The translations under genes and the position numbers were made by a program. A model generated the notes under the pieces. The model was not told the origin of the DNA and searched no databases. It saw only the letters and a program-made list of their open reading frames with translations. Below, in pieces: positions 21,551-47,129 of a stretch of DNA of 64,000 bases (positions within the stretch are counted from its first letter, which is position 1; each line of letters starts with the position of its first letter). Source of the stretch: Leisingera thetidis (GTDB lineage: Bacteria > Pseudomonadota > Alphaproteobacteria > Rhodobacterales > Rhodobacteraceae); NCBI RefSeq assembly GCF_025857195.1, contig NZ_CP109793.1, positions 45,967 through 109,966 on the forward strand, read 5' to 3'.

Positions 21551-21649
21551 TCTTTTTTCCTTCTTTCGTTTCTTAAACTGACTAGATGAGTTCTTTGAAG
21601 TATCCTGATCGTGTGGGAGCCTAGTCACGCGCATAGTCGGCAGCCGACT

Positions 21650-25201: not shown

Positions 25202-25309
25202 GTCGTAAACTCCAGTTTGTTGGTCTGGGGAGAGCATAGGCAAAAAACAGACTGCTGTTTCCGAATGCGCTTGCCGCATGCCCTCCCCGACTCCTTTCCT
25301 TCAGGGAGG

Positions 25310-26421: not shown

Positions 26422-26435
26422 TGGGAACGATTTCA
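26422..26435. promoter_or_regulatory. LacI-type operator
   Basis: TGGGAACGATTTCA, a 14-bp CG-centred pseudo-palindrome of the LacI/GalR form TGNNAACGNTTNCA, about 100 bp upstream of the ABC operon start codon. It matches sites at 41092, 43740 and 47102. Confidence 0.65.
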
Positions 26436-26523
26436 TTTCTTCGCAGAAGCTTGCACAACCGATTCGCACCCAGTGTCCATGTTATACATTTATCTTTTTT
26501 TGTTGTCTACGTTTTTCACCGTG

Positions 26524-26536
26524 TTGTATATATCAG
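26524..26536. promoter_or_regulatory. possible MatR-like operator
   Basis: TTGTATATATCAG matches 11 of 13 bases of the TTGTATATAACAA palindrome in the matA-matR divergent region. It is AT-rich, so chance is a real possibility. Confidence 0.3.
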
Positions 26537-26669
26537 CGGTGCTATCCAAGATCCCGAGATATGAGATCTATGACATTCAATCCCATCTTCGTCAGAAATC
26601 AGTTCGTTCGAAAAAGGTTATTCTATCCTGGACCATCGGTTCACGCTATCGATCCGGACAAGCCTTGGG

Positions 26670-28053
26670 CAGCTATGGCTGAATCTGGTGTTTGGGCGGT
26701 TTGAAAGCTGGCGGTGCATCTGGTTGGTTTGATGTCGCCAAACAAACCACCAACCATCGAGGACGCACCACCATGAATGACGCTACCATCATCGAATTTG
26801 CCGGTCGAGACACCGTGTCGGACCCGCTGACGGATCTTCTGCGCAAGGGCGCGCGGGAGCTTCTGCAAACGGCGGTCGAGGCGGAGCTGGACGCTTTCCT
26901 GGCCGAATTTGCGAAACACCGCACCCCGGAGGGCCGGGCCGCGGTTGTTCGGAACGGACACCACCCCGAACGCGCCGTGCAGACCGGGATCGGCCCGGTC
27001 ACGGTGCAGATCCCGAAGGTGCGCTCGAAGACGGGCGCGCCTGTGGCGTTCCGCTCGGCGCTGGTCCCGCCTACGTCCGCAAGGCGAAGTCGATCGAGGC
27101 GGCGCTGCCCTGGCTGTACCTCAAGGGCATCTCTACGGGCGAGATGGGCGCAGCACTCAAGGCGCTCCTGGGCCCGGACGCGACCGGCTTCTCGGCCAAG
27201 ACAGTGGCGCGGCTGAAGGCGCAATGGGCGGAGGAGTACGACGCCTGGCGCAAGGCCGATCTTGGCCGTGATGAATGGGTCTATGTCTGGGCCGACGGGA
27301 TCTACAGCGGCTTGCGCGGCACAGATGACCGGCTCTGCGCCCTGGTCGTGATCGGCGTCAATGCGCGCGGCGAGAAGCATTTCCTGGCCATCGAGGACGG
27401 CGTGCGGGAAAGCACCCAAAGCTGGCGCGAGGTCCTGCTGGGGCTCAAAAGCCGCGGCCTCAACGCTCCGAAACTGGCGGTCGGCGACGGGGCCATGGGA
27501 TTTTGGGCGGCTCTTGAGGAAGTCTATCCCTCCACCCGGCAACAGCGCTGCTGGGTGCATAAGACGGGCAACGTTCTGAACTATCTGCCAAAGCGCAGTC
27601 AGCCCAAGGCAAAGAAGGCGCTGCACGACATCTGGCAGGCCGAGACCCGTGAAGATGCCCGCAAGGAGTTTGACTTGTTCGTCGGCACCTACGAAGCGAA
27701 ATACCCCAAGGCGGTCGAATGCCTGGTCAAGGACCGCGACGAACTGCTGACCTTCTACGACTTCCCCCGCCCAGCACTGGCAGAGCATCAGGACGTCAAA
27801 TCCCATCGAGAGCGCGTTCGCCACCATCCGCCACCGCACGAAACGCACCAAGGGATGCCTGAGCCGGGACGGGATGCTCCACATGATGTTCAAGCTCGGC
27901 CAATGCGCTGAGAAAAGCTGGCGCAAGCTGCGCGGCTTCGCTCATCTCGCAGACGTCATCGAAGGCGTCGATTTCATCAACGGCATCAAGCCATCAACAC
28001 AAGATCAGGCCGCCGCTTGATGACCGCCCAAACACCAGATTTGACAATAGCTC
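26670..28053 (+). mobile_element. IS256-family element, copy 2, with 9-bp target duplication
   Basis: A 1384-bp element nearly identical to copy 1 at 16139. It is flanked by a perfect 9-bp direct repeat AGCCTTGGG (26661-26669 and 28054-28062), which fixes both ends. It sits between the matB 3' end and the promoter region of the ABC operon. The intact duplication shows a simple, probably recent insertion. Confidence 0.95.
26773..28020 (+). pseudogene. IS256-family transposase, two frameshifts
   Basis: This has the same start and sequence as the copy at 16242. Here the T-run at 26895-26897 is in frame, so AELDAFLAEFAKHRTPEG reads correctly. One base is missing near 27071 (PPTSVR instead of PPYVRK) and one C is extra in the C5 run at 27764-27768 (FPRPALAEH instead of FPAQHWQSI). 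Copy 1 is correct at both places. Combining the copies gives an intact transposase of about 416 residues. Confidence 0.9.
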
Positions 28054-28101
28054 AGCCTTGGGCCATACCATGCTCTCCGGTGACTACACCGCTCTTGCGC
28101 T

Positions 28102-29668
28102 CTACCGCCAAAAAACTGGACCTTTTTGCCCCGGTTGTGAGGAAAGGTTTCCGTTTGGTGAATAAAGGTCAGCAAATCGGGTCCGCAGTTCAGCCTTTTG
28201 CACCTTGCCCATGGCGTTGCGCGGCAAGGAATCCACGACAATCGCTGCCCTCGGCTGCTTGTAGCGGGCAAGTTTTTCGGAAAGCGCATGGAAAAGTCTG
28301 TCCTTTTCAAGAGCGGCTCCAGGCTGCAGCACCACCACCGCCGTCACGTACTCGCCGAAATCCGGGTGGGGCACACCGATAACTGCTGACTCGGCGATCT
28401 CGGGAAGCTCGTCGATGGCTGTTTCGACTTCCTTGGGATAGACGTTGTACCCTCCACTAATCACTAGGTCCTTGTCACGGCCGACGATGTGCAGGTAGCC
28501 GTCGGTGTCGACAAAGCCGAGATCGCCGGTGACGAAGAACCCGTCAGACCGAAATTCTGCGGCTGTTTTCTCCGGCATCCGCCAGTAGCCTTGGAACACG
28601 TTTGGCCCCCGGACCTCGATCACACCGGTTTCACCAGAGGCAACAAGCGCGCGCGTCTCGCGGTCGGTGATCCTGATCTCCACATCTGTCAGTGGAAACC
28701 CCACGGCCCCGGTTCGGCGCTCCCCATCGTAGGGGTTCGAAGCAATCATGCAGGTTTCTGTCATACCGTAGCGCTCGAGGATCACGTGGCCGGTCCGTAC
28801 AAAAAAATTGCGTGTGCACGTCCTGGAGCAAAGGCGCAGAACCCGACACGAAGAGTCGCATTGACCGGGTCGCGTCGCGGTCGAGTCGAGGCGAAGACAG
28901 AAGGCGGGTATAGAAGGTCGGCACGCCCATGAGCACAGTGGCATTAGCCATCTCGTCGATGACCTGGTCGACGTTGAAGCCGGTCAGAAAGATCATCGTG
29001 GCGCCTGCCGTGAGTGCCATGTTGCAGGCCACAAAGAGGCCATGGGTGTGAAATATCGGCAGCGCGTGAATAAGCCTGTCGGTGCTGTCGAAGCGCCAGG
29101 CCACGTTGAGGGCCATTGTGTTTGAAACCAGGTTTCCGTGGGTGAGCACCGCGCCCTTGGACCTTCCGGTTGTTCCCGACGTGTATAGAATGGCGGCAGG
29201 ATCAGTTGCCGACCGGCTGACCTGCGTGCGTGCCGGAGCAGCGCCAGCCACGCGATCCATCAATGTACCGTCTCCCTCCGCGCCAAGGCTTTCGACTGCC
29301 AGCGCAGGAGACGCGTATCGTGAGTTCTGGTCGAGCATGCGGGGGGAGCAGACAAATAGCCTTGGCTCCGCATCGCCCAAGAAATAGTCGATTTCGGCGC
29401 CGGTGTAGCTCGTGTTGAGCGGCAGGAACAAAGCCCCCGTCCGCAGACAGGCAAGATATAACAGGACCGCTTCGGCGCTCTTGTCCACTTGTACAGCAAC
29501 CCGGTCACCCGGAGATACGCCCAGATCCAGAAGCACCGTGGCAAACCGGAGAGCCAGATCCTGCGCCTCGCCATAGGTGATCTGCGACTGCCCCGGCCGC
29601 TCGAACAGCACCTTGAACTCATGCTTGCGGCAACAGAGGTCGAACATTTCCGGGATTGTACGGCTCAT
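28102..29668 (-). pseudogene. matB: malonyl-CoA synthetase, one frameshift
   Basis: From ATG 29668 (MSRTIPEMFDLCCRKHEF) this is an acyl-CoA synthetase with the AMP-binding motif ILYTSGTTGRSKGAVLTHGN and MatB-like ALPIFHTHGLFVACNM. A seven-A run at 28801-28807 breaks the frame in the segment that should read VHTQFFVRTGHVILERYGMT. The remainder (GYWRMPEKTAAEFRSDGFF, VTGDLGFVDTDGYLHIVGR, KDLVISGGYNVYPKE) is intact. It ligates malonate to CoA. It is 15 bp downstream of malonyl-CoA decarboxylase. The frameshift may be a base-call error. Confidence 0.9.
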
Positions 29669-29682
29669 TTCAATATCTCGCT

Positions 29683-31040
29683 TCAGATGGAGTATGGGTG
29701 TGACGGATCGATCAGGCAGCTGCGCCCCCGATGGCTCCGCAAGGCGCGCCGCATGGAGGGGCCGCAGGCGATGCTGCCTTCGTTCGCGAAGGACTCGTGT
29801 CGGGATTCGATCTCGTCCAGCTCGTAGAGGTAGTTGATCATCACGCCGTGTGCGCGCTCCAGCGCGCCTTTCGCCAAGTCCGCAGGCCAATTGACCCGAT
29901 ACGCCGAGGCGCCGTTGCCCAGATGAAAGCGCGCCACCGGATCCACGGGCGCGCCGGCCGCGGTCTTGCCATGGACAACGTATCGCGCCGCCCAATACTG
30001 GACCTGGGGCTCAAGACCCTCGCACAGGGCCGCGTCGTTTTGCCATGCTCCGGCGGCCAATTGCGCGGCCAGTTCCTGCGCTCCAGTGTCGTCCTGGGTG
30101 TTGAGCCAGCCGGCAAATCCGGGAGCCGGCGACAAGGTCACAAAGGTCCGAATGTCTGTCAATTCCTGCGAAAGGTTGCTAACCACCTGCTTGATGAGAA
30201 AATTGCCAAACGACACACCCTTGAGGCCCGGCTGGCAATTGCTGATCGAATAGAAAACCGCCGTATCGGGGGCGTCGCTGGAAGCGGAGCTGTCGAGGGA
30301 CAACAGCGGCATGATGGCGTCCGGAATTCCTTTGCACAGCGCTACCTCGACAAAGATAAGTGGCTCATCGCCGGTCGCGGGATGGAAGAAGCCGTAACAG
30401 CGGCGGTCGAACGGCTCGAGACGGCGTCGAAGATCGTTCCAGTCCCTGATTTGATGTACGGCCTCGTAGGCGACGATCTTTTTCCAGGATCGCAGCCGGT
30501 GAGTTCCAGTCGATCCGGCGCATCACCAGGAAGCCGCGGTTGAACCAGGACGTGAGCAGATGACAGAAATCGCTATCCAATGGCGCCAGATCTGGCTCTG
30601 AGCGCATCATCCGGAGCAGGTCCTGACGCATCCTGACCAATTGGATTGTGCCGCCGGGCGGGTGGTTGAGCATGCGCAGCAACTCCTGCCGCCTAGGCTC
30701 CACGGCTCTGAACAAGTCTACCAGTGCGGTTTCCGATTGGCCAGCCTCCCCAGGTCAAGTACGCGACCTTCAGAGCATCTGGGTCGGCGCTGTATTCGTC
30801 CAGAAGCAGCCGAAAGAAACGCGATTTGGCGGCGTCGTCGAGTTCGGCATAGGCTGCGAGCGCTTGGCCGGCCACGGCCATCCGCGATGCTTCGCCGCCC
30901 GGCAGCATCAGTTGCGCACAACCGTTGACAAGCCTGGTTTCGGCTGTTTGCGTCGACGTTTGCTTGGCTATCTTCAGGCCCATACGATCTGCGATGCTTT
31001 GGAAAAGGTCGCTCAGCAATGCGATGTTGGAACCCGTCAT
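29683..31040 (-). pseudogene. matA: malonyl-CoA decarboxylase, two frameshifts
   Basis: The frame starts at 31040 (MTGSNIALLSDLFQSIADRM). An extra C in CCCC at 30748-30751 and an extra T in T5 at 30479-30483 shift the frame. Corrected, it reads LTWEAGQSETALVDLFRAVE, FNRGFLVMRRIDWNSPAAIL, EKIVAYEAVHQIRDWNDLRR and VSFGNFLIKQVVSNLSQELT. This is a full malonyl-CoA decarboxylase of about 450 residues, which decarboxylates malonyl-CoA to acetyl-CoA. It is divergent from the GntR-type matR. Confidence 0.88.
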
Positions 31041-31090
31041 GACCTCTGTCTCCCGATGGCTTCTGCGTCTTATACACCCGAAAGACTATG

Positions 31091-31103
31091 TTGTATATAA
31101 CAA
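31091..31103. promoter_or_regulatory. MatR operator candidate
   Basis: TTGTATATAACAA (arms TTGT/ACAA) lies in the 130-bp divergent gap between malonyl-CoA decarboxylase and the GntR regulator. The rhizobial MatR operator is known to be TTGTATACAA-like, so this is a good candidate autoregulatory site. Confidence 0.6.
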
Positions 31104-31170
31104 AAACGGTTCTGGATTTTTCACCCAGGACCTTCTATGTTCTTTGAAAAGATTGAAAGGAGCATTGCGA

Positions 31171-31833
31171 TTGGTACGCAAGTCGAACACGGCTCACATC
31201 CGGGAAACGCTTGAGAACGCCATCATCAATGGCCAGTACTCGCCCGGGGCTCGCCTAGACCCGGAACGGCTGGCTCGCGAGTTCAATTGTTCCCGCACAC
31301 CAATTCGCGATGCGCTTCAGCAACTTGAAGCTTCGGGCCTGGTCCGCATCCACTCCAAGCAAGGTACCTTTGTCGCTGAATGGAGCATGGAAGAGCTGAC
31401 CGAACGGTTCGAAGCAATGGCAGAATTGGAAGCGACCTGCGCGCGCCTCGCCGCCCGGCGAATTACAAACGAGGAACTGGCGGAACTTGAAGAAAAGCAC
31501 GAAGCCACCCGCCAACTGGCAGAGGAAGAGCGCTTCGACGAATACTATGTTGCCAACTCGGCATTTCATCGCTGCATCTACAGAGCGTCTCATAATGCCT
31601 TTCTTGCGCAAGAGGCCATGCGCCTGCATTCGATGCTTCAACCCTATCGCCGAATACAGCTGCAAGTCCGCAACCGGGTAAAGCGGTCATTCAAGGAACA
31701 CGATGCAGTCGTTGCCGCAATTCGCAACGGCGACGACAAGGCTGCAGATAAGGCAATGCGGGATCATGTTCTGATACAAGGCGACCGATTTCACGATCTG
31801 CTTGCGGCGCTGAGGGTGGAAGCAGCACAGTGA
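31171..31833 (+). CDS. matR: GntR-family (FadR subgroup) regulator, probable MatR
   Basis: A TTG start at 31171 is chosen because AAAGGAG lies 8 bp upstream and no ATG/GTG fits. The product is 220 residues. The N-terminal winged HTH (HIRETLENAIINGQYSPGAR, LAREFNCSRTPIRDALQQLE) is followed by an all-helical FCD ligand domain with metal-type residues (ANSAFHRCIYRASHN, EHDAVV, DHV). It is divergent from malonyl-CoA decarboxylase/matB, the usual arrangement of matR, which represses malonate catabolism until malonate is present. Confidence 0.85.
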   Translation: MVRKSNTAHIRETLENAIINGQYSPGARLDPERLAREFNCSRTPIRDALQQLEASGLVRIHSKQGTFVAEWSMEELTERFEAMAELEATCARLAARRITNEELAELEEKHEATRQLAEEERFDEYYVANSAFHRCIYRASHNAFLAQEAMRLHSMLQPYRRIQLQVRNRVKRSFKEHDAVVAAIRNGDDKAADKAMRDHVLIQGDRFHDLLAALRVEAAQ

Positions 31834-32068
31834 AAGACAAGGTGCCTTGCTGGTCGCGTCAATATACTTGCACCGTTGTTTGCACAAAGTGATCTGAAGC
31901 TTGATTTCCCTCCAGCTTTCGGGGAAATCCGTCGGTTGATCTCTCGCCTCATGCGACCCTGGTTTCCAGTGTCGGTTTCATTGCGAATTGGCTTTGATGC
32001 TGTAACCGCCCCCCGACGGCATCGGTGTGCCAAGGTGGGATCGCAACAATCCATATTGGGAGGCGGTC

Positions 32069-33097
32069 ATGTCGGAGATTATCACGGTCGGACTGGATCT
32101 GGCGAAGAATGTGTTCCAGGTCCATGGTGCTGACAGCAAAGGCAGTGCTGTTTTACGCAAGAAGCTCAGAAGGGCCCAAGTGCTTGAATTCTTCGCTAAG
32201 TTGCCGCCCTGCGTGGTGGCGATGGAGGCCTGCGGGGGCGCGCATTTCTGGGGTCGGGAGCTGGCCAAGCTCGGTCACGACATCAAACTCATCCCGCCCG
32301 CCTATGTGAAGCCCTTCATCAAGCGGCAAAAAAATGACGTGGCGGACGCTGAGGCTATCTGCGAGGCGGCGCAGAGACCGAATATGCGCTTCGTGCCGGT
32401 GAAGAGCGAGGAAACGCAAGGGGCGGCCAGCGTCTTCCGCGTCCGAGAATTGCTCATCCGGCAGCGCACCTAGGCCATCAACGCGCTCCGCGGACACCTC
32501 ACCGAGTACGGCTGGGTCGTGCCACAGGGTGCGACGAATGCCCGGCGCCTGGTCGCCCTTGTCGCAGACGAGGCCTCAGGCCTGCCCGCCACGGCGCGGG
32601 CCTCCCTGACGGTCCTGACTGCAACGCTTGCCCAGCTCGACAGTCAGATCGAGACCTTGGATGCCGAGATCGACCGGCGAGCCAAGACGGATGAGGTTGC
32701 CCGGCGCCTGATGACGATCCCCGGCATCGGCCCGTTGATCGCCACGGCCATCGCCACTCTGGCTCCGCCGCCGGAAGCTTTCCGGAGGGGACGAGACTTC
32801 GCGGCATGGCTCGGCCTCACGCCGCGGCAGCACTCGACAGGCGGCAAGCAGAGGCTCGGCGCCACGACAAAGATGGGCGAGCGCTCTTTGCGCCGGTTGC
32901 TGATCATCGGGGCCAACAGCGTTATCATCAAGCGGCATTGCCACGCTTCGGCTCGTCCGGGAACGTGGTTGGCGGGAATGCTGGAGCGGAAGCCGACGAT
33001 GCTGGTCCGGGTCGCCCTCGCCAACAAAATGGCGCGGATCGTCTGGGCGCTGATGAAGAGCGGTGATATCTACCGGGCTCCGGCCATGGCGGCGTAA
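32069..33097 (+). pseudogene. IS110/IS1111-family transposase with one nonsense codon
   Basis: The start MSEIITVGLDLAKNVFQVHG shows the DEDD (RuvC-like) N-terminal domain (GLDLAKN, AMEACGGAHFWGREL, KNDVADAEAICEA). An in-frame TAG at 32471-32473 replaces the expected Gln in RQRTQAINALRGHLTEYG. The frame then runs on to 33097 with the Transposase_20 domain (RRLMTIPGIGPLIATAIATL, FAAWLGLTPRQHSTGGKQRL). Full length would be about 342 residues. Only one C-to-T change separates it from a working gene. The 235 bp upstream (31834-32068) hold its left end and no other gene. Confidence 0.9.
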
Positions 33098-33355
33098 GGT
33101 CCGCCAGCGGTCGCGAGGTCGTCGGAGCGGAGGAGGGCTGAGAGCAGCTTGGCGCAACGGTCGTGAGACGGGGTCGGAAGAACCAGAGTGCAACAGAGTG
33201 CCATCGAGCACGCGGCTTTGATTTGGTTCCGACCCGCGAACACCATGCGGGCCCGCGGCATGACGATGGCCGCATCACGAGGCCGGATACATGTCAGCAC
33301 CCGACACCGCGCCAAATTGCTCCAAAACCCTCTTGCGCAAGGGGCGGTTATACAT
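33098..33355 (+). other. non-coding 3' end of the IS1111-type element, candidate guide-RNA region
   Basis: About 258 bp follow the transposase without a credible gene. IS110-family elements are known to encode a structured bridge/seek RNA in a non-coding end, and for the IS1111 group this is the 3' side. The position fits. I have not derived a fold or target loops, so this is inference only. Confidence 0.3.
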
Positions 33356-34397: not shown

Positions 34398-34494
34398 AAA
34401 GCCTTGCGAATTTCTGCGACGTGAGATTGCCCAAGGACAAATGGCTGTCCTTCGAGACATCCAAACCGATGAAAAGTTCGATATTCTCGACCAT
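34398..34494 (-). pseudogene. IS110-family transposase, N-terminal fragment
   Basis: The minus strand from ATG 34494 encodes MVENIELFIGLDVSKDSHLS, the start of a DEDD transposase, and is cut after ~30 residues by the IS5 right end. Its 5' leader (34495-34660) resembles the leader of the IS1111-type gene at 32 kb (both with ACCGCCCC and CGGCATC), so the two were related elements. It begins immediately after the pyruvate carboxylase stop. Confidence 0.75.
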
Positions 34495-34664
34495 GGTTCG
34501 TCCTCCTGGCTTGAAGCTCTGCTCTCCGAGGAACCCTCGTTGAAAGCCGCCAGTGTAGGGCTCCCCCCCGTCACGGGCAGCCGCAAAAGGACATACGGTC
34601 TTACATTGCAGACCCACGTTGGTACATTGATGCCGCCGTGGGGCGGTCGCATCATCAGAGCCCA

Positions 34665-37600: not shown

Positions 37601-38104
37601 CCCGCCGCCGCCCCAGGACGCCTTGAGCATCAGCGGATAGCCTATCTCGGCCGCCTCCTTGCGGATGGCGTCCATGTCGTTGCCCAGCACCTCTGTCGCC
37701 GGGATCACCGGCACGTCGGCGGCAATCGCCACCTTGCGCGCGCTGGCCTTGTCGCCAAGCGCGCGCATGGTCTCGGCCTTGGGGCCGATGAAGGTGATGC
37801 CGTTCTTGACGCAGGCGTCCACGAATTTCGGGTTCTCGGACAGCAGGCCATAGCCCGGATGAATCGCATCCGCGCCGCAGTCCTTGGCGACCCGGATGAT
37901 CTCGTCGATCGACAGATAGGCCGCGACCGGCCCCATGCCTTCGCCGATGCGATAAGCCTCATCCGCCTTGAAGCGGTGCAGGCCCAGCTTGTCCTCTTCG
38001 GCAAAGACGGCAACGGTGCGTTTGCCCATCTCGTTCGCGGCGCGCATCACCCGGATGGCAATCTCTCCGCGGTTCGCGATCAGGATCTTCTTGAATTCGG
38101 TCAT
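34665..38104 (-). pseudogene. pyc: pyruvate carboxylase, several frameshifts
   Basis: From ATG 38104 (MTEFKKILIANRGEIAIRVM) come the biotin-carboxylase/ATP-grasp domain (KASWGGGGRGM, FYFIEVNP), then the carboxyltransferase domain (LITDTTMRDGHQSLLATRMR, LFSVECWGGATFDVAYRFLQ, PIHFHTHDTAG). It ends with the biotin-carrier domain and its EAMKMET site. Breaks lie near 37220-37223, 36701-36712 and 35998-36004, with a probable compensating pair at 36605-36650. The span of 3440 bp fits the usual ~1147 residues almost exactly, so essentially nothing but single bases is missing. It would make oxaloacetate from pyruvate. Its start overlaps the upstream HAD gene by 4 bp. Confidence 0.92.
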
Positions 38105-38994
38105 GCCTGCGCTCGGACCTCTTCAGCACTTAATTGCAAAACCTGTTGGACAAGCCACTCGAGGGCAATCGCCAACCCGCCGTCGTCGCAGGACGGCGCA
38201 ACGATATCCGCCGCGCTCTGGATATGCGGCTTTGCATTGGCAACCGTGATGGCCAAACCGGCCCATCGCAGCATTTCGAGATCGTTATCCGAGTCCCCCG
38301 CGACAACCACATCGCCAACGGCAATGGCGCGCGCGTCCGCCAGAAAGGCTGCGGCCAGGTCTTTCCGCGTATCCGGGGAAACAAGCTCGACAAGGTTCGG
38401 ACCGGATTGGGCGACGGTCAATTTGTTAGCGAAGGTGAGGGACAATGACTGGACGGCATCGGAGATACGGCCCGCGGGAAACGTCGCCAATAGCTTGAAT
38501 GGGGCGCCGGGCGCATCTTCCGGGGACCGGATCAGCGCAAGGTCATCCCCGGTCACATCGGTCCGTCGTCTCGCAACCTGTTCATCGGGCGTCAGGACAT
38601 AGCCACAGGTCAGATCGAACCAGATCGGGCTGCCGCCGGCAGAATGGACCACCGACATGGCTTCCAGCGCAAAATCGCGGTCCAATCGATTTTCTCTGAG
38701 CGTCTCCCGATTGCGCAAGTTGCCGATCCAGGCGCCGTTGAAGCAGCAAACCATGTCCGACGCGCCCACCTCCGCATGAACGCGCTCGACCCCGACCGGA
38801 GAACGTGCCGACGCAAGAATGATGGGCAGGTCGATGGCGTCAAGTCCGCGCATGGCGGCGGAGACCGTTGGCAGGAGCTTGTGATCATGCGTCAGCAATG
38901 TCCTGTCGACATCGCAAAAGAACAGTTTCGGACGGGTGTCCAGAGGCAGTTTTCGAGAGATTTGTAGGTCAGGCAACGGCGTCTCCTCCGACAT
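38101..38994 (-). CDS. HAD-superfamily phosphatase (Cof type)
   Basis: A 297-residue HAD hydrolase from ATG 38994 (MSEETPLPDLQISRKLPL). The catalytic motif is FFCDVDRTLLTHD (D28, D30), then SARS (motif II), a lysine in APFKLLATF, and GDSDNDLEMLRWAG (motif IV). The cap is type C2, as in Cof/YidA sugar-phosphate phosphatases. It overlaps the alanine racemase 3' end by 26 bp and the pyruvate carboxylase start by 4 bp, so it is locked in one operon. Substrate unknown. Confidence 0.87.
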   Translation of the reverse strand: MSEETPLPDLQISRKLPLDTRPKLFFCDVDRTLLTHDHKLLPTVSAAMRGLDAIDLPIILASARSPVGVERVHAEVGASDMVCCFNGAWIGNLRNRETLRENRLDRDFALEAMSVVHSAGGSPIWFDLTCGYVLTPDEQVARRRTDVTGDDLALIRSPEDAPGAPFKLLATFPAGRISDAVQSLSLTFANKLTVAQSGPNLVELVSPDTRKDLAAAFLADARAIAVGDVVVAGDSDNDLEMLRWAGLAITVANAKPHIQSAADIVAPSCDDGGLAIALEWLVQQVLQLSAEEVRAQA

Positions 38995-40114
38995 AGGTGC
39001 GGTAACATCCCCGGCCAAGTGCGATGATCGCCTCATGTTCATTTGTGCCGACGGTATTGGCCAGAGAACGGTAGTTTATTGTCTTGCCGACAATCTCGGC
39101 CATGGAGCCGACATGCACTGTGCTTTCCGGCAGCGCCGAAATATCGACGGCGGTCAAATCCATCGAAACCCGGCCGACGACAGGCGCAATCCGATCCCCG
39201 AACGCTACGTGCCCGAGATTGCTGTTGCCGCGCAGATAGCCATTGGCATAGCCAATCGCGAGGATGGCCACGCGCCGGGTTTCGGGGGCGTGCCATGTGC
39301 AGGAATAGCCCACCGGATCGCCCTTGCACAGCGTCCGGATCTGGACGACCGGCGCCAGAACCGTTGCCGGCTCATGAAGCGGGTTGGCGGCGTCGGCCAG
39401 AGGATTGATTCCGAAGGTGGATTTCCCGGGGCGGATGATATGGCCATGGAACTCTTGCCCCAGAAAAACGCCGCAGGAGTTTGCGATTGAGAGCGGGGCT
39501 TCGGGAAACCTGGACGCGCGGTCACGCAGCCTTTCGGCCTGTAGGCGACAGAGGTCTAGATCCACATCGTCCGCCGACGCGAAATGAGTCATGTAGGCCT
39601 GGACGTCCAAGTTCTTCAGCAGAGGCAGTGCCAGATCATCGTCATCGGGTGCCAGGCCCAGACGATTCATGGCCGTGTCCAGATGTACGAAGGCGGCAAG
39701 AGGCGCGCCTTGCCGGATTGCCGCGTCGGAGGCCGTTTGCAATTGCTCGCGCGAATTCACCACGGGAATGATGTCCTGCGCCACGGCTTCTTTCATGCCG
39801 TCCTCTGTCACGCCATCGAGTGCCGCGATGCGCGGTCCCTGCCCCAGCGTATTTCGCAAGACCAAGGCATCCTCGAACCGGGCGGTAAAGAACAACTCGG
39901 CTCCGGCGGCCAGCAGCGTCCGCGCGGATTCAACCATTCCATGCCCATAGGCATCGCCCTTCACGATGGCCGCGCAAGAGCCTTGCGCCATTCGCGCCAG
40001 GGCTTGGAAATTCCGGCGGATGGCGGCCAGGTCGACGACCATCACCGGCTCGCTTGTCAGGCGGCGTCTGGCCTCGGCGGGCAAATCGGTTGAGATACTG
40101 GTTTCGTGGATCAT
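38969..40114 (-). CDS. alr: alanine racemase family protein
   Basis: A 381-residue PLP-dependent fold-III racemase from ATG 40114 (MIHETSISTDLPAEARRRL). The PLP lysine is K52 in AIVKGDAYGHGM. The catalytic Tyr region is VGYSCTWHAPETRRVAILAI, with GRVSMDLTAVDI downstream. In this operon it may be catabolic, supplying or removing D-amino acids, rather than cell-wall dedicated. A broad-spectrum amino-acid racemase is possible. Confidence 0.88.
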   Translation of the reverse strand: MIHETSISTDLPAEARRRLTSEPVMVVDLAAIRRNFQALARMAQGSCAAIVKGDAYGHGMVESARTLLAAGAELFFTARFEDALVLRNTLGQGPRIAALDGVTEDGMKEAVAQDIIPVVNSREQLQTASDAAIRQGAPLAAFVHLDTAMNRLGLAPDDDDLALPLLKNLDVQAYMTHFASADDVDLDLCRLQAERLRDRASRFPEAPLSIANSCGVFLGQEFHGHIIRPGKSTFGINPLADAANPLHEPATVLAPVVQIRTLCKGDPVGYSCTWHAPETRRVAILAIGYANGYLRGNSNLGHVAFGDRIAPVVGRVSMDLTAVDISALPESTVHVGSMAEIVGKTINYRSLANTVGTNEHEAIIALGRGCYRTYVGGDAVA

Positions 40115-40179
40115 GCCAGGATTCTCTTTTCGAGTGCCCGGGCCGCACTGGGTGCGACCCGGGGTTTGTCGGCTTGGGA

Positions 40180-41052
40180 TCAGGCGGAAAGCGCGGCGAC
40201 GGCCTGCTCGACCAGCTTCATCTCGTCGGCCTTGAGCGGCGGAACCGGCATGCGGCACAGGCCAACCTTGCGACCGGTCATGTCGCTTCCGGCCTTCGCG
40301 ACCGGGTTGAATGGTAGCGTCCACAGCAGCCGGCTGATCGGCTGGAGCTTTTTCCAGACCTCCTCGGCCTTGCCGTATTCGCTGGACTGGACCAGGTTCC
40401 ACAATTGGACCACTTCCGCCGGGGCGACGTTGCCCGAGCCGGTGAACAGGCCCGCGGCACCGTTGACCAGTGCAAAGAAGTTCAGGAAATCGCAGCCGCA
40501 GAAGACCTTGGCTCCCTGCCCGGCCAGTTTCTCGATCCGGCTGGGATCGGCCGTCGAGTCCTTGATGTAGTCGATGCCGTCGATCTCCGAGAACCGGGCG
40601 AAGATTTCCGGCGTGATGTCGAACTGGGTGAAGACCGGGATGTTGTAGGCCATGATCGGGGTCTTAATCGCGGCCGCGATCTGTTCGTAGTGCCAGCGCA
40701 CGCCCTCTTCACCCGGACCTTCGAAATAGGGCGGCAGGACCAGGACCGCATCGGCGCCGACGCCTTCGGCATGCTTCGAATTCTCGACCGCATCTTCGGT
40801 CCGGATGGCCGAGGTCTGCACGATCACCTTTGCACGGCCGTCGGCGTGCTTGCAGGCCACCTCTGCCAATTCCCGCTTCTCGACCTCCGACAGGAACGGG
40901 AATTCCCCGGTGCCACCGTTGATCGCGATGATGTGAACCCCGTTCTCGATCAGAGAGTCGATATTGGCCTTGAACGCATCGAGGTCGAGGCCGGCGCCAT
41001 TATTGGTGAATGGCGTGCAGATCGGAACGCAAACGCCTTGCAGATTGCTCAT
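40180..41052 (-). CDS. dihydrodipicolinate synthase (DapA) family lyase/deaminase
   Basis: A 290-residue (beta/alpha)8 class I aldolase from ATG 41052 (MSNLQGVCVPICTPFTNN). The Schiff-base lysine is K164 (IDYIKDSTADP) and the partner Tyr is Y136 (MAYNIPVF). The GGTGEF loop is present. A LacI-type operator lies 40 bp upstream. With a proline-racemase-family enzyme and an aldehyde dehydrogenase nearby, 1-pyrroline-4-hydroxy-2-carboxylate deaminase (hydroxyproline pathway) is an attractive candidate. Other 2-keto-acid lyases of the family are not excluded. Confidence 0.85.
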   Translation of the reverse strand: MSNLQGVCVPICTPFTNNGAGLDLDAFKANIDSLIENGVHIIAINGGTGEFPFLSEVEKRELAEVACKHADGRAKVIVQTSAIRTEDAVENSKHAEGVGADAVLVLPPYFEGPGEEGVRWHYEQIAAAIKTPIMAYNIPVFTQFDITPEIFARFSEIDGIDYIKDSTADPSRIEKLAGQGAKVFCGCDFLNFFALVNGAAGLFTGSGNVAPAEVVQLWNLVQSSEYGKAEEVWKKLQPISRLLWTLPFNPVAKAGSDMTGRKVGLCRMPVPPLKADEMKLVEQAVAALSA

Positions 41053-41091
41053 AGTAGTCTCCTTTTGTTGCCCATTCGGGGCGTTCTTCAT

Positions 41092-41105
41092 TGGGAACGT
41101 TTTCA
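41092..41105. promoter_or_regulatory. LacI-type operator upstream of the DapA-family gene
   Basis: TGGGAACGTTTTCA, matching the 26422, 43740 and 47102 sites, lies 40 bp upstream of the DapA-family ATG (41052) and just after the aldehyde dehydrogenase stop. Confidence 0.75.
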
Positions 41106-41142
41106 TTGCGGGGCGCGGACACGCCCTGCAATTTGCCTTGGG

Positions 41143-42636
41143 TTAGCGAAGCTGAATCCAGATCGCCTTTTGCTCGGTGTACTGGTCGTGGGCGTGCAGA
41201 CCCTTGTCCTTGCCGCCGAAACCGGATTCCTTGAATCCGCCGAAGGGCACGGCAAAATCACCTTCCGAGTAGCAGTTGACCGAAACGGTTCCGGCCCGAA
41301 TGGCCTTGGCCATGCGATGTGCCCTGTTCAGGTCATCTGTATAGACCGCCGCCGCCAGCCCGTAGCTGGTGTCATTGGCGATGCTCACCGCTTCGGCTTC
41401 ATCCTTGACCGTGATAACCGATAGGACCGGCCCGAAGATCTCTTCACGGGCAATGGTCATGTCGTTGGTAACACCTTCAAAAATCGTAGGCTCGACGAAG
41501 TAACCGCCGGTTTCCGTCAGAACGCGCTTGCCACCAAAGGTCACCGCGGCGCCTTCAAACTTGCCGCGCTCGATCATGCCAAGCACCTTTTCCATGTGCT
41601 TCTCTCCGATCATCGTGCCAACACGGGTGTTCTCATCGAACGGATCGCCGACCGTCCATTCTGCGAAATGGGACTTCAGCTCTTCCAGCAAACGATCCTT
41701 GATCCCCTCCTGAACGATCAGCCGCGAACCCGCTGAACAGTTTTCGCCCATGCAGAACAAGATACCGTTGGCCACGTTCTCGATGACCGGTCCCAGATCC
41801 CTCACATCGTCCATGACGATGGCAGGGCTCTTGCCGCCGCATTCGAGAATGATCTTCTTCAAGTTCGACTTGGAAGCATATTCCAAGAAGTAACGCCCAA
41901 CCTCGCCGGAGCCGGTAAAGCTCACGCAATCCACGTCCATGTGGAGACCGATTGCCTTCCCTGCTTCGTGACCGAGACCCGGCACCACGTTGAAGACGCC
42001 ATCCGGAATGCCCGCCTGGTTGGCCAACTGAGCCACACGGAGCAGCGACAGGGACGTCAATTCTGCTGGCTTGACGATCAGCGAATTGCCGCCCGCCAGC
42101 GCCGGGCCGATTTTCCACATGGCGACAAAAAGCGGGAAGTTCCAAGGGATCACCGCGCCTACGACGCCGATCGGTTCGCGCACGATCATCGACACCACGT
42201 CATGTGGCGCGGTCGACATCTGGTCATAGATCTTGTCGGTAGCTTCGGCGTGCCAGCGCAGCGTGGCAATGGAGTCAGGCAAATCGACATTGCGCGCGTC
42301 GTTGATCGGTTTTCCGGCATCGAGCGACTCCAGCAAGGCCAGTTCCTCAATATTCTCTTCGATCAGGTCGGCGAATTTCAGAAGCACGGCCTTGCGGTCG
42401 CCGGGTGCCATGTGCGCCCAGGTCCCGGCTTCGAAAGCTCGGCGCGCGGCGGCAACGGCAAGATCGACATCCTCTGCATCGCATGACGCGATATTTGTGA
42501 TGACCTGGCCGGTGGCGGGGTTGACCGTCGGGAATGTTTTGCCCGACACTGCATCGACGAATTTCCCGTCGATATAGGCGCGCGTCTCGAAGTTCAGCGC
42601 GGCGGCGGCTGCCTTGAAGTCGGTTGGTTTGTTCAT
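41143..42636 (-). CDS. NAD-dependent aldehyde dehydrogenase (PuuC-like)
   Basis: A 497-residue ALDH from ATG 42636 (MNKPTDFKAAAAALNFET). It shows the cofactor site (IPWNFPLFVAMWKIGPALAG, SFTGSGEVGRYF), the catalytic Glu (ILECGGKSPA) and Cys (CMGENCSAGSRL), and the C-terminal VPFGGFKESGFGGKDKGLHA. It resembles gamma-glutamyl-gamma-aminobutyraldehyde and related semialdehyde dehydrogenases. In this setting 2-oxoglutarate semialdehyde is a candidate substrate (inference). It is 28 bp downstream of the racemase-family gene. Confidence 0.9.
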   Translation of the reverse strand: MNKPTDFKAAAAALNFETRAYIDGKFVDAVSGKTFPTVNPATGQVITNIASCDAEDVDLAVAAARRAFEAGTWAHMAPGDRKAVLLKFADLIEENIEELALLESLDAGKPINDARNVDLPDSIATLRWHAEATDKIYDQMSTAPHDVVSMIVREPIGVVGAVIPWNFPLFVAMWKIGPALAGGNSLIVKPAELTSLSLLRVAQLANQAGIPDGVFNVVPGLGHEAGKAIGLHMDVDCVSFTGSGEVGRYFLEYASKSNLKKIILECGGKSPAIVMDDVRDLGPVIENVANGILFCMGENCSAGSRLIVQEGIKDRLLEELKSHFAEWTVGDPFDENTRVGTMIGEKHMEKVLGMIERGKFEGAAVTFGGKRVLTETGGYFVEPTIFEGVTNDMTIAREEIFGPVLSVITVKDEAEAVSIANDTSYGLAAAVYTDDLNRAHRMAKAIRAGTVSVNCYSEGDFAVPFGGFKESGFGGKDKGLHAHDQYTEQKAIWIQLR

Positions 42637-42664
42637 TGTAGTCTCCTTAAAAGAAGGTAGGATT

Positions 42665-43696
42665 TCACGCCACCGGCCAGGTGTCCGACAGCGTGTAGCC
42701 GGTTGGGAACGGGTCGGAAGGGTCGAGGACGTATTGATGGAAGGCGGTAATCCAGGCGCGGCCGGTGATCTCGACCGACACGTCGGGGATCTCCCCCGTC
42801 CGGCCGATTTCGAAGATGCGGCCGGTGAATTTCGTACCGATAATGGATTCGTGGACGAAATCTTCGTCCTTCTGGATGTCTCCTCGGGCGTGCAGCAGCG
42901 CCAGCCGGGCCGTTGTGCCGGTTCCACAGGGCGACCGGTCGAGGCGGCCGGGTGAGACGATGACGCCGTTTCGCGATGTCTTGACACCGTTTTCTTCGCG
43001 CAGCGGCCCCGCCCAAAGCGTTTGGTTCACCGTGTGGATTTCGGGGTTTTCGGGGTGCACCGATGGCAGCTGCTCCGCCGCCGCGGCCTTGACCTTCTCG
43101 CCGACAGACGACAATTCCGCCGCCTCATCCGGTTCGATGGCAAAGCCACAATCAGCGGCATCGACGATGACATAGAGCATTCCGCCATAGGCTACGTCGA
43201 CCCGCAGCGAGCCGTGATTTTCTACCTCGATAACTTCATCCCGGTGCAGAACAAACGCCGGCAGGTTTTTGAAGCTGATCGATGTAACCTTGCCGTTTTC
43301 GCACGTTGCCCGCATCCGGATCAGGCCTCCTGGGGCTTCAAGCACCACATTTGTCACCGGCTCGACCATAGGAATCATGCCGGTTTCCAAGAGCACAGTT
43401 GCGGTGCAGATCGTGTTGGTGCCGGACATAGGCGGGTAGGACGCAGGCTCACTAATAATGTATCCGGCCTGCGCCTCTGGGTGGTTCGAAGGCAACACAA
43501 GGTTGGTGCATTGCGAGACCTTGCCGCGCGGTTCATGCAGCAGGAAGGCGCGTAGATCATCGCCTTCACTCTCGAGCCATCGCGCCTTTTCGAACATGGT
43601 GCTGCCCGGCACGTTCAGGACGCCGCCGGTGATCACCTCGTTCGGCTCTCCTTCGGCATGAGCACCGACCACGTTGATCATTCGGGAAAGTTTCAT
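42665..43696 (-). CDS. proline racemase family protein (candidate hydroxyproline 2-epimerase)
   Basis: A 343-residue PrpA-family enzyme (MKLSRMINVVGAHAEGEPNE). The two active-site positions are S91 (PPMSGTNTIC), where most proline racemases have Cys, and C257 (DRSPCGTGTTARLALL). Ser/Cys pairs are known in part of the 4-hydroxyproline 2-epimerase group, and Cys/Thr in trans-3-hydroxyproline dehydratases, so an epimerase is favoured. A LacI-type operator lies 44 bp upstream. No D-amino-acid oxidase of the usual pathway is seen in the window. Confidence 0.86.
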   Translation of the reverse strand: MKLSRMINVVGAHAEGEPNEVITGGVLNVPGSTMFEKARWLESEGDDLRAFLLHEPRGKVSQCTNLVLPSNHPEAQAGYIISEPASYPPMSGTNTICTATVLLETGMIPMVEPVTNVVLEAPGGLIRMRATCENGKVTSISFKNLPAFVLHRDEVIEVENHGSLRVDVAYGGMLYVIVDAADCGFAIEPDEAAELSSVGEKVKAAAAEQLPSVHPENPEIHTVNQTLWAGPLREENGVKTSRNGVIVSPGRLDRSPCGTGTTARLALLHARGDIQKDEDFVHESIIGTKFTGRIFEIGRTGEIPDVSVEITGRAWITAFHQYVLDPSDPFPTGYTLSDTWPVA

Positions 43697-43739
43697 ATTT
43701 TTGGTTTCCGTATTGTTCGCGTGGATTGAGAAAAACCGA

Positions 43740-43753
43740 TGGGAACGATTGCA
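43740..43753. promoter_or_regulatory. LacI-type operator upstream of the racemase-family gene
   Basis: TGGGAACGATTGCA lies in the 92-bp gap between the racemase-family ATG (43696) and the upstream GMC gene. It differs from the 26422 site at one base. Confidence 0.7.
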
Positions 43754-43788
43754 TGATCTGACGTATGATATCCCATTTGAGTATGGTT

Positions 43789-45420
43789 TCAGTTTGCAAG
43801 GTAATAATCGGCCTTCTCTGGAAGCAGCGGCGGGCGGCCGCGAATGTCATCGGCGATGCGCTCTGCCATCATGATGACTGGTGCATTCAAGTTGCCTGAG
43901 ACAATTTCAGGCATGATTGAGGCATCGACGATACGCAGCCCTTCTACCCCGTGAACTCGGCCCATGTTGTCGACAACCGAGTTCTGGTCATTGCCCATAC
44001 GGCATGAGCAGCAGGGATGGTAGTTCGTTCCGGCTGTATTGCGAAGCCAAGCTTCGATGTTGGCATCCGTCCGAACATCTTTGCCTGGCGTCACCTCCGC
44101 GCCGCGGAACTCATCCCAAGCGCTCTGTGCCACAGTTTCCCGGATGGCTTTGGTGGCCAGAATAGCAAGGTCGAGATCGTCCCTATTGTCAAAGAAGTTG
44201 AACACGAATTTCGGGTTCTTCATCGGGTCGGGGGAGTCGATCCAAACCCTGCCTTCGGACTTCGGCCGCATCAGGCTAAAAAAATACTGAAATCCGTTTT
44301 CCAGCTTCACATTGCCGTGCTGAAACTCACCTAACATCGGCACGAACTCGAATTGGACGTCAGGAATGATCTCGCTTTCGCGCACTCGCATAAACGCCCC
44401 TACTTCAAAGAAGTTTGTCGCCCCGAGCCCTTTTTTGAAAAACAGCCATTGCGCTCCGAGTTTCGCTTTTCCAAAGAACGACAACTCTTTCGCCGCCGAC
44501 ACGTTCTTAGTAGCACGGTACATGACGGGCGCGGCGATATGATCCTTCAGACCTTGGCCCACTGCAGGCAGGTGATTGACCACCCCGACCCCGACGGACC
44601 TGAGATGATCAGCATCGCCTATCCCGGACAACTGCAGGAGTTGAGGTGAATTGATGGCACCGGCACAGAGGATGGCTTCACGCTCTACCTCATAGCTTAC
44701 TTCGCCAGACGGCGATTCTGCTATGACCCGAACAGCGCGTTTGTTTGAGGTTTCGATCCTTTTCACCCGTACGCCTGTCTGGACATAGAGGTTAGGTTTA
44801 GGTGGCTGGTTGAGAATGTATGCATAGTGGGTATTGAAGCGAATTCCACTGCCGACATTCCGCTGGGTGACGTGAACACCTTCCTGCTTGTAGCCGTTGT
44901 GGTCCTTCACATGTTCCAGCCCCATCTGTTTTCCGGCTTCGAGGAAGGCATGGTAGAGCGGATTTTCGGCTTTGCAGGTTTCAACGTGCATCGGCCCGTT
45001 GGCACCACGATAGGTATTGGCACCGCGATCAAAGGTTTCCGCTTTCTTGAAGTAGGGAAGCACGTCTGCGTAGGACCACCCCTCGACGCCAGCGCTGGCC
45101 CAATTGTCATAGTCCCAGGGGTTTGCGCGCACCCAGTTCATCCCGTTGATCGAGGACGAACCGCCAAGAACGCGCCCGCGCGCCTCATGGATGGTTCTGT
45201 TGTTCAGATTAGGTTCGGGCTCGGAATCATAAAACCAGTTGAACCTGTCGTTCATCAGTGGAAATCCAAGTGCAGCCGGCATCCGGATGTATAGGTGATC
45301 GTCTTTTGGCCCGGCTTCGAGAAGGAGTACGTTGATCGTCGGATCTTCTGCCAGACGCGCGGCAATGACAGATCCTGCGGAGCCGGATCCGATGACAACA
45401 TAGTCATATTTAACTTTCAT
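43789..45420 (-). CDS. GMC-family FAD oxidoreductase, choline-dehydrogenase-like
   Basis: A 543-residue flavoprotein from ATG 45420 (MKVKYDYVVIGSGSAGSV). It has the N-terminal FAD motif GSGSAGSVIAARLAE, GMC signature 1 (GRVLGGSSSINGMNWVRANP), signature 2 (GAINSPQLLQLSGIG) and the C-terminal active-site His region (GTNYHPCCSCRMG). It oxidises an alcohol to an aldehyde. The aldehyde dehydrogenase immediately upstream (77 bp gap) would finish oxidation to the acid, a BetA/BetB-like pair. The actual alcohol is not deducible. Confidence 0.9.
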   Translation of the reverse strand: MKVKYDYVVIGSGSAGSVIAARLAEDPTINVLLLEAGPKDDHLYIRMPAALGFPLMNDRFNWFYDSEPEPNLNNRTIHEARGRVLGGSSSINGMNWVRANPWDYDNWASAGVEGWSYADVLPYFKKAETFDRGANTYRGANGPMHVETCKAENPLYHAFLEAGKQMGLEHVKDHNGYKQEGVHVTQRNVGSGIRFNTHYAYILNQPPKPNLYVQTGVRVKRIETSNKRAVRVIAESPSGEVSYEVEREAILCAGAINSPQLLQLSGIGDADHLRSVGVGVVNHLPAVGQGLKDHIAAPVMYRATKNVSAAKELSFFGKAKLGAQWLFFKKGLGATNFFEVGAFMRVRESEIIPDVQFEFVPMLGEFQHGNVKLENGFQYFFSLMRPKSEGRVWIDSPDPMKNPKFVFNFFDNRDDLDLAILATKAIRETVAQSAWDEFRGAEVTPGKDVRTDANIEAWLRNTAGTNYHPCCSCRMGNDQNSVVDNMGRVHGVEGLRIVDASIMPEIVSGNLNAPVIMMAERIADDIRGRPPLLPEKADYYLAN

Positions 45421-45497
45421 GGTGTTTCTCATCTGTTCCAAGGGTTCCAAGCAAGGGTATCCAACAATTGTCATCTTTGGATCTCCGCCGATCCAGT

Positions 45498-46970
45498 TCA
45501 CGCGGTGTGTGGCAACGATTTCGACCGTTTCCCAAGTCGGAAGAACGTCGATTTGACTTGCATGAACTCAGTCAAACCCTCTTTTCCGTTTTCGCGACCC
45601 AAGCCGGAGCGCTTGTAGCCGCCAAAGGGCATCTGCGGGGCTCCGTCCAAAAATGTATTCACCCAGACTGTACCGGACTTCAGCCGCTTCGAGACTTGGT
45701 GGGCCTTATCGATATCCTTGGTCCACATGCCGTTGCCGAGCCCGTATTCAGTATCGTTGGCCAGCGCCACGGCCTCGTCCACGGTCTCAAAAGTGGTGAT
45801 TGAAATGACCGGACCGAAAACTTCTTCCCGGAAATAGGTCATCTTGGGAGTGACATTTCCGAGGATGGTGGGCGCGATGAAGTAGCCTTTGTCGTAGTCG
45901 CCGCCGGTCAGACGCCCGCCGCCGCAGAGGATTGTTGCCCCTTCCTTTTTGGCGGTTTCGATGTGGTCTAACACCGAGTTCATGTGGTCTTCATGGATCA
46001 TCGCACCCATGTCGCTTTCCTTGTCCAGCGGCAGTCCAACGCGGAGCATTGACATACGCTCGGCCAGCTTGGCTGAGAAATCTTCGGCAATGCTCTTTTC
46101 GACAAGAAGTCTGGTACCGGCGACACATTCCTCGCCCTGGTTTAGGATCGTCCCCAAAACCACACCGTCCAGAGCATCGTCAAGATCGGCGTCGGCGAAC
46201 ACGATGTTGGCCGCCTTGCCGCCGAGTTCCAGACCGGCACGCTTTACCTGACGGGCGCATTTCTCGCCGATCTGCTGGCCGACCGGGGTCGAGCCGGTAA
46301 ACGAGATCATGTTGACATCAGGATGCTCCACCATCGCATTGCCGACCACGCTGCCTTTACCGGTGACAACATTGATGACCCCGTCGGGAAAGCCTGCTGC
46401 TTTCGCCAGCCTGGCGATCTCTAACGTGGTTCCGGCGGTCATTTCAGAGGGTTTGACGACGACCGTGCAGCCTGCCGCAAGCGCATAAGGCAATTTCTGA
46501 AACAGCGTCACTGCGGGAAAATTCCAAGGTGTGATCATTCCGACAACACCAATCGGCTCGTAGGATACGATGCCAAGTGCCGACGTGCCGTGATGGGTTT
46601 GCGCCCGGCCTGGGATTTCCCAGGCAAGAGCAGCCGCGTATCGAGTAAGATTGATGGAGTGGCTAAGCTCACCGTATCCGTCCTTGATCGGTTTGCCGAC
46701 TTCCTCCGCTTCGATCTCGGCCAATTGGTCGAGTTTGGCCTCCATCAGATCAGCAAGCTTCGTCAGGAGCGCTGCGCGCTCAATGCAGCCACTGTTGGCC
46801 CATGCGCCCTCGGCACTCTTTGCGGCGGCAACTGCCGCATTCAGATCGCCGGCGGTGCCAAGCGCGAAGGAGGCAAGATCCGCGCCATGTGCCGGGGATT
46901 TCCTGATCGCTGCTTTGCCACCGATGGCAGGTACATCCTTGCCGTTTATCCAAAGATTGTAGCAGCGCAT
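45498..46970 (-). CDS. NAD-dependent aldehyde dehydrogenase (BetB-like)
   Basis: A 490-residue ALDH from ATG 46970 (MRCYNLWINGKDVPAIGG). Motifs are ITPWNFPAVTLFQKLPYALA, SFTGSTPVGQQIGEK, the Glu in LELGGKAANIVFADAD, the Cys in NQGEECVAGTRLLVE, and MPFGGYKRSGLGRENGKEGL. It is the first gene of a minus-strand pair with the GMC oxidoreductase. It is divergent from the LacI regulator, with a double operator between them. Confidence 0.9.
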   Translation of the reverse strand: MRCYNLWINGKDVPAIGGKAAIRKSPAHGADLASFALGTAGDLNAAVAAAKSAEGAWANSGCIERAALLTKLADLMEAKLDQLAEIEAEEVGKPIKDGYGELSHSINLTRYAAALAWEIPGRAQTHHGTSALGIVSYEPIGVVGMITPWNFPAVTLFQKLPYALAAGCTVVVKPSEMTAGTTLEIARLAKAAGFPDGVINVVTGKGSVVGNAMVEHPDVNMISFTGSTPVGQQIGEKCARQVKRAGLELGGKAANIVFADADLDDALDGVVLGTILNQGEECVAGTRLLVEKSIAEDFSAKLAERMSMLRVGLPLDKESDMGAMIHEDHMNSVLDHIETAKKEGATILCGGGRLTGGDYDKGYFIAPTILGNVTPKMTYFREEVFGPVISITTFETVDEAVALANDTEYGLGNGMWTKDIDKAHQVSKRLKSGTVWVNTFLDGAPQMPFGGYKRSGLGRENGKEGLTEFMQVKSTFFRLGKRSKSLPHTA

Positions 46971-47101
46971 GACTTTCTGACCTCTCAATATTCTGTTTTG
47001 ACTCACGCTCCCACGAAACTCGTGGAACCGGGGCGGATGCACGTTTCGATGAACCGCGATTCCCTACGCCTTACGTCCAAGAACGGTCGAATCCCGTCCT
47101 A

Positions 47102-47129
47102 TGGGAACGTTTTCATGGAAACGGTCCCA
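47102..47129. promoter_or_regulatory. double LacI-type operator
   Basis: Two 14-bp pseudo-palindromes abut exactly: TGGGAACGTTTTCA (47102-47115) and TGGAAACGGTCCCA (47116-47129). They lie in the divergent region between the aldehyde dehydrogenase (46970) and the lacI-type gene (47191). This probably mediates autoregulation and control of the oxidoreductase pair. Confidence 0.78.

Follow-up and report, generated by a model that had tools for sequence, protein, structure and literature searches.

In a 64,000-nucleotide stretch of the Leisingera thetidis genome (contig NZ_CP109793.1, positions 45,967 to 109,966; hereafter, the window), a short recurrent sequence precedes both a group of catabolic genes, adjacent to a gene for a LacI-family regulator, and an operon for an ABC importer that is located well outside this group. 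Do these genes form a single regulon, and does the importer serve the pathway? The observations described here give good support to a local LacI regulon that extends to an importer encoded at a distance. Taken as a whole, the best explanation, with a probability of about 0.75, is that the LacI protein encoded in the window is the local regulator of four units, the ABC operon included, acting via sites of the TGGGAACGNTTNCA form. The predicted operators, to which no strand is assigned, are the following (coordinates are those of the window).

26422..26435, predicted LacI-type operator upstream of the NMT1/TauA-type ABC operon
41092..41105, predicted operator upstream of dapA
43740..43753, predicted operator upstream of the proline-racemase-family gene
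47102..47115, predicted operator 1 of a tandem pair, in the gap between lacI and the gene for aldehyde dehydrogenase 2 (ALDH2)
47116..47129, predicted operator 2 of the tandem pair, directly abutting operator 1

The sequence-only reading had described five copies of a 14-mer upstream of these units, and a search of the window verifies all five, starting at 26422, 41092, 43740, 47102 and 47116. In the orientation of the genes that they precede, the ABC site is TGAAATCGTTCCCA, the dapA site TGAAAACGTTCCCA and the racemase-family site TGCAATCGTTCCCA; CGTTCCCA is invariant across these three sites and the opposite half is variable, so that the symmetry extends to only 4–5 of the 7 positions, compared with 6 of 7 in the sites of the Tabrizicola ortholog discussed below. 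All five sites share a central CG. The site at 47116 reads TGGGACCGTTTCCA on the minus strand, and the tandem sites of the lacI gap start, in the minus-strand reading, 8 bp after a TTGACA box. The distance from the site centre to the start of the gene, as assigned in this analysis, is 108 bp for substrate-binding protein 1 (SBP1) of the ABC operon, 46 bp for dapA, 50 bp for the racemase-family gene and 138 bp for ALDH2, and the centre of the second gap site is 68 bp upstream of the lacI start. More than 75% of LacI-family sites are located 140 to 30 bp upstream of the gene according to PMC4052901. Being partly palindromic, with a central CG and ~30–140 bp from a start, the sites appear to be of the LacI type, as supposed from the letters alone, and binding is predicted.

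How rare is this motif? The window contains eight matches with up to two mismatches against 1.62 expected, and none of 100 shuffles reached eight. In the complete genome (5,473,091 bases in 8 contigs), TGGGAACGWTTKCA is found in four exact copies, all of them in the window (contig C7), at 26422, 41092, 43740 and 47102. When one mismatch is allowed, there are 10 matches, the four exact copies and six one-mismatch matches elsewhere, compared with none for the reversed TGGGAACGWTTKCA. Because TGGGAACGWTTKCA had been derived from the matches themselves, the search was repeated with a fairer query, the lacI-gap site TGGGAACGTTTTCA alone. In 5.47 Mb, fewer than two mismatches to this query are found only for the site itself, the dapA site (0 mismatches) and the ABC site (1 mismatch). 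At up to two mismatches, there are 22 genome matches versus 19 for the reversed control, and two-mismatch matches are therefore background; with this query, the sites at 43740 and 47116 belong to that class. Under a leave-one-out matrix, from which the ABC site was omitted, the ABC site scores 22.6, the third-highest score in the window and above two of the training sites, whereas the best scores in 30 random first-order Markov windows (1.92 Mb) have a maximum of 17.4 and a mean of 14.3. Together, the shuffles, the reversed controls, the lacI-gap query and the leave-one-out matrix reject a chance origin of the sites. Among the six one-mismatch matches to TGGGAACGWTTKCA elsewhere, five are inside a mechanical open reading frame (ORF) of 192 to 626 codons, and the sixth is in none of the eight longest mechanical ORFs printed for it; these are reading frames, not established genes. 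No equally good sites are scattered elsewhere in the genome. Two more candidates in the window are not claimed: 48440-48453, inside the serine lyase gene, which scores 15.7 with the leave-one-out matrix, within the random range, and 45510-45523, within the end of ALDH2 and ahead of the GMC gene, which scores 14.3.

The regulator gene is next to the tandem pair, where it had been noticed, and the catabolic genes lie on the other side of the gap.

47191..48240, plus strand, LacI-family regulator (PF00356 and PF13377 above cut-off, helix-turn-helix (HTH) and ligand-binding domain)
48333..49709, plus strand, L-serine ammonia-lyase, downstream of lacI (TIGR00720 above cut-off)
45498..46970, minus strand, ALDH2 (profile matches)
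43789..45420, minus strand, GMC oxidoreductase (choline-dehydrogenase subfamily model NF002550 above cut-off)
42665..43696, minus strand, proline-racemase-superfamily enzyme, Ser-Cys type (PF05544, 409 bits)
41143..42636, minus strand, aldehyde dehydrogenase 1, ALDH1 (profile matches)
40180..41052, minus strand, DapA-family gene (PF00701, family membership)
38969..40114, minus strand, alanine racemase, alr (TIGR00492 above cut-off)
38101..39042, minus strand, Cof-type HAD hydrolase (profile matches)

The LacI protein (47191-48240) would bind the TGGGAACGNTTNCA-form sites before four transcription units, and it is most likely a repressor that a metabolite of the pathway would release. Judged by gene spacing, the units are ALDH2-GMC, counted with lacI on the other side of the gap, the pair of the racemase-family gene and ALDH1, a group led by dapA, and the NMT1/TauA-type ABC operon. 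Given that the tandem operators start 8 bp after TTGACA, LacI bound there would block a promoter in the gap. Both the binding and the sign of control are inferred, and the four-unit regulon is testable. It resembles the local LacI-family regulons described by Ravcheev et al. (2014; PMC4052901) in having even sites with a central CG ~30–140 bp upstream, tandem sites in a divergent gap and, likely, autoregulation. The differences are that the pathway looks amino-acid-like rather than devoted to a plain sugar, that the regulon is split over four units, one of them distant, that the sites are only partly symmetric, and that the tandem sites are spaced by 14 bp, close to the peak reported at 13 bp but not at it.

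A syntenic cluster is assigned to Tabrizicola oligotrophica, with a LacI protein 57% identical to that of the window; among the LacI matches listed for 198 genomes of the family (own genome included), only the own gene and this one exceed 41% identity. The other counterparts are 83% (dapA), 81% (racemase-family gene), 79% (GMC), 74% (ALDH1), 72% (ALDH2), 60% (alr) and 38% (Cof) identical. The gene order is nearly that of the window, with dapA beyond alr and Cof, and no counterpart of the serine lyase is found in the Tabrizicola stretch read. The Tabrizicola lacI gap reproduces the layout of the window: a pair of adjoining 14-bp sites, of the TGAAATCG type, starts 8 bp after TTGACA. The recognition-helix residues are KS (positions 24-25) in the window LacI versus PA in the Tabrizicola LacI, and the half-sites differ too. 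All three matches to the TGAAATCG-type motif in the Tabrizicola genome (up to one mismatch) are in the cluster, two of them forming the tandem pair. The Tabrizicola lacI gene is followed by a phage-type integrase gene (L033:1349-2641), which suggests a mobile island.

Could the sites be copies of a common family operator? The obvious candidate, TGTAAGCGCTTACA, was rejected as the identity of the sites because it goes with LacI genes of the TA type, named, like the others, for the recognition-helix pair. Out of the 30 TA-type genes recognised by script, 25 have TGTAAGCGCTTACA upstream, three have a near form and in two (L010, L022) none is seen; two further TA genes have TGTAAGCGCATACA. TGAAATCGATTTCA-like sites are found upstream of an AA paralog on contig C3 and of the PA genes in Tabrizicola and L034, and the GTAAACGTTTAC core is found with three of the four IA-type genes, those of three plasmid clusters (none is seen in L013). 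The HTH script returned no line for 11 of the loci L001-L045 (L001, L003, L004, L006, L012, L023, L024, L031, L032, L034 and L035); L034 and the window LacI were read separately. The site upstream of the C3 paralog, which belongs to the same genome as the window, is a perfect TGAAATCGATTTCA (L036:9319-9332). The LacI of the window is the best candidate regulator of the sites. The differing recognition-helix residues and half-sites of its orthologs and paralogs form a small set of natural data on how LacI proteins select their operators.

What, then, does the pathway degrade? Further related clusters are found on three plasmids, those of Shinella zoogloeoides, Rhizobium sp. 11515TR and Paracoccus versutus (pBEN), the top three of 357 records by identity of the racemase-family protein. 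The racemase-family gene, GMC, ALDH2 and lacI are present in all three and in Tabrizicola, and the motifs MSGTN and DRSPCGTG, which start at positions 90 and 253 of the window protein, are kept in all five racemase-family proteins. The plasmid LacI proteins are 36–38% identical to that of the window. The family assignments of the cluster enzymes fit the lower hydroxyproline route, and our guess is that the substrate is probably a proline or pyrrolidine in hydroxylated form. GMC and ALDH2 would convert an alcohol into an acid. The hydroxyproline so formed would be the substrate of the Ser-Cys enzyme, DapA would deaminate the product to 2-oxoglutarate semialdehyde, and ALDH1 would make 2-oxoglutarate. 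The cluster resembles bacterial hydroxyproline clusters, which combine 4HypE or t3HypD with a DHDPS-family deaminase and an aldehyde dehydrogenase (PMC4113996), in that proline-racemase-superfamily, DapA-family and aldehyde dehydrogenase genes occur together. It differs in the presence of a GMC oxidoreductase, a second ALDH and an adjacent lacI gene, and no D-amino acid oxidase or ketimine reductase is found among the proteins scanned.

A possible alternative, if one that we do not favour, is that the pathway degrades trans-4-hydroxy-L-proline in the ordinary way, the Ser-Cys enzyme serving as epimerase and a D-amino acid oxidase being encoded elsewhere; this is separate from the question of regulation. 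One Ser-Cys enzyme of the proline racemase superfamily is indeed a 4-hydroxyproline epimerase (PMC4113996), and DHDPS-family and aldehyde dehydrogenase enzymes come after the epimerase in that route. However, the cluster proteins scanned include no D-amino acid oxidase, the sole trace being a DAO match below threshold in the GMC protein (the rest of the genome was not searched), and it is GMC, ALDH2 and a sugar-type importer that recur instead in the related clusters. Moreover, the best curated family for the racemase-family enzyme is trans-3-hydroxy-L-proline dehydratase (NF047722), with 428 bits, below the cut-off of 550, and its closest solved relatives include a 3-hydroxyproline dehydratase.

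A more specific and rather doubtful proposal is a route for polyhydroxylated, iminosugar-like pyrrolidines, in which 3,4-dihydroxyproline would arise through oxidation of a hydroxymethyl group by GMC and ALDH2 and would then be dehydrated by the Ser-Cys enzyme to 4-hydroxy-1-pyrroline-2-carboxylate, DapA and ALDH1 would yield 2-oxoglutarate, and the sugar-type importer would have been replaced by an unrelated ABC system via one operator. Dihydroxyproline is proposed because the GMC/ALDH2 pair suggests alcohol-to-acid oxidation. Weak dehydration of a dihydroxyproline is reported for an unrelated enzyme (PMC5144071), and no such pyrrolidine route appears in the titles or abstract openings of the literature covered, itself a partial set. 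If correct, this guess at the pathway would imply a new role for proline-racemase-superfamily enzymes. By the profile scores, choline-like substrates are possible too, because GMC passes the choline-dehydrogenase subfamily cut-off while both ALDH proteins stay below the betaine-aldehyde ones. That dapA is missing around the plasmid clusters is an argument against a general occurrence of the full route.

The outlying operon consists of the following genes.

25310..26320, minus strand, ABC substrate-binding protein 1 (SBP1), NMT1/SsuA-like (PF09084 and PF13379)
24386..25279, minus strand, ABC permease, TauC/SsuC-like (below curated equivalog cut-offs)
23566..24381, minus strand, ABC ATPase, TauB-like (below curated equivalog cut-offs)
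22404..23465, minus strand, second substrate-binding protein (46% identical to SBP1)
21650..22447, minus strand, alpha/beta hydrolase (profile match)
21086..21634, minus strand, RbsD/FucU-family protein (profile match)

Its binding protein, permease and ATPase are of the NMT1/TauA/SsuA type; it differs from such importers in the presence of two binding proteins and of codirectional alpha/beta hydrolase and RbsD-family genes. In all four related clusters (the three plasmids and Tabrizicola), the same sugar-type ABC importer, recognised by the Pfam family SBP_bac_1 and, in Tabrizicola, also by a MalK-like ATPase, lies across the lacI gap; presumably, it is of the CUT1 type, our working label. 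The plasmid binding proteins are 65 to 69% identical to that of Tabrizicola. In the window, only an ATPase (36%) matches this importer, and the genome of L. thetidis holds no close match to its binding protein, the best being 24% identical (E 1.1e-9). We infer that the NMT1/TauA-type system replaced the sugar-type importer of the related clusters, and it is predicted to import the pathway substrate. This would be a likely example of a recurring catabolic module that has exchanged its importer, with an orphan importer tied to its pathway via a shared operator rather than by neighbourhood.

Several observations weigh against the regulon with its importer. The ABC operon is 15–20 kb from the cluster, behind several insertion sequences, as the sequence-only reading had it: IS256, IS110 and IS5 transposase genes and a GntR-family gene occupy 27144-34336, together with a split acyl-CoA-ligase gene. 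Relatives of SBP1 are rare, with only the own genome found among 390 genomes of the order at E 1e-50. A promoter scan called nothing at the ABC, dapA or lacI-gap sites and made one call just upstream of the racemase-family site, with overall totals not above chance. No dapA match is found in the 31-kb stretches of the three plasmid clusters. Tabrizicola is the single ortholog with DNA compared, and the expectation that orthologous clusters share the site is borne out there for the tandem operator, the gap and the 8-bp register, and fails for the letters: the TGGGAACG form of the window is absent and the half-sites differ, no operator is found before dapA or the racemase-family gene, and the third motif match is an additional one, just within the start-side boundary of no operon but inside the ALDH1 gene. 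Most of the TA-type genes are closely related to one another and so not independent. Finally, one other of the eight LacI genes in the L. thetidis genome starts its residue pair with lysine (KT, at C1:2837968) and, by eye, has a AAACCGATTT-type palindrome upstream; as close orthologs of the window LacI have KT as well, knowing the residue pair is not enough to predict the operator.

The distance with the intervening insertion sequences, the rarity of SBP1 relatives, the silent promoter scan at the ABC site and the NMT1 rather than sugar type of the transporter would all be accommodated if the catabolic sites were real and the ABC site a relic or chance copy, the operon having arrived by rearrangement to serve another substrate. 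This is unlikely, given that the ABC site is the best match to the lacI-gap site in the genome after the dapA site, that its score of 22.6 exceeds the maximum of 17.4 reached in 1.92 Mb of random sequence, that it lies at a normal operator distance from the start, and that a close match to the importer of the related clusters is missing from the genome. That a different LacI-family protein binds the sites is highly improbable: the genome does encode eight, and that at C1:2837968 shares KT with the close orthologs of the window LacI, but this gene has its own, different palindrome, no match to the lacI-gap query with up to one mismatch is near another lacI gene, and the tandem site adjoins the window lacI, as in Tabrizicola.

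The cluster was probably acquired, judging from the fact that, across the genus (21 genomes, own included), the LacI relatives listed from other genomes are only 35–38% identical. LacI searches of 385 genomes of the class (E 1e-85) and 390 of the order (E 1e-80) recover only the own genome, those of 394 genomes of the family (E 1e-80) only the own genome and Tabrizicola, and a contig collection only one distant Staphylococcus locus; no plasmid match is found for DapA (E 1e-60) or SBP1 (E 1e-30), and none in the viral contigs searched. Closer LacI orthologs, up to 82% identical among the matches listed, are known as proteins alone; those of about 65–82% identity whose residue pair was read have KS or KT. 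In favour of the regulon, LacI and DapA relatives agree in the length of their longest contig (>5 kb) in at least 13 cases, by eye among the best 120 of each. One SBP1 relative and one LacI relative also share a contig size (9344), perhaps by coincidence; it is the only such case among the 17 SBP1 relatives from outside the window.

Some neighbouring genes are spread over more than one ORF. A malonyl-CoA synthase-like gene (28102-29995), between the ABC operon and the cluster, is split over two ORFs, and a pyruvate carboxylase gene (34665-38104) is distributed over four ORFs that overlap or adjoin and differ in frame, and is probably broken. Beyond the cluster, the window encodes an AbiEii-type toxin-like protein (56679-57581) and a Fic-domain protein (62197-63309).

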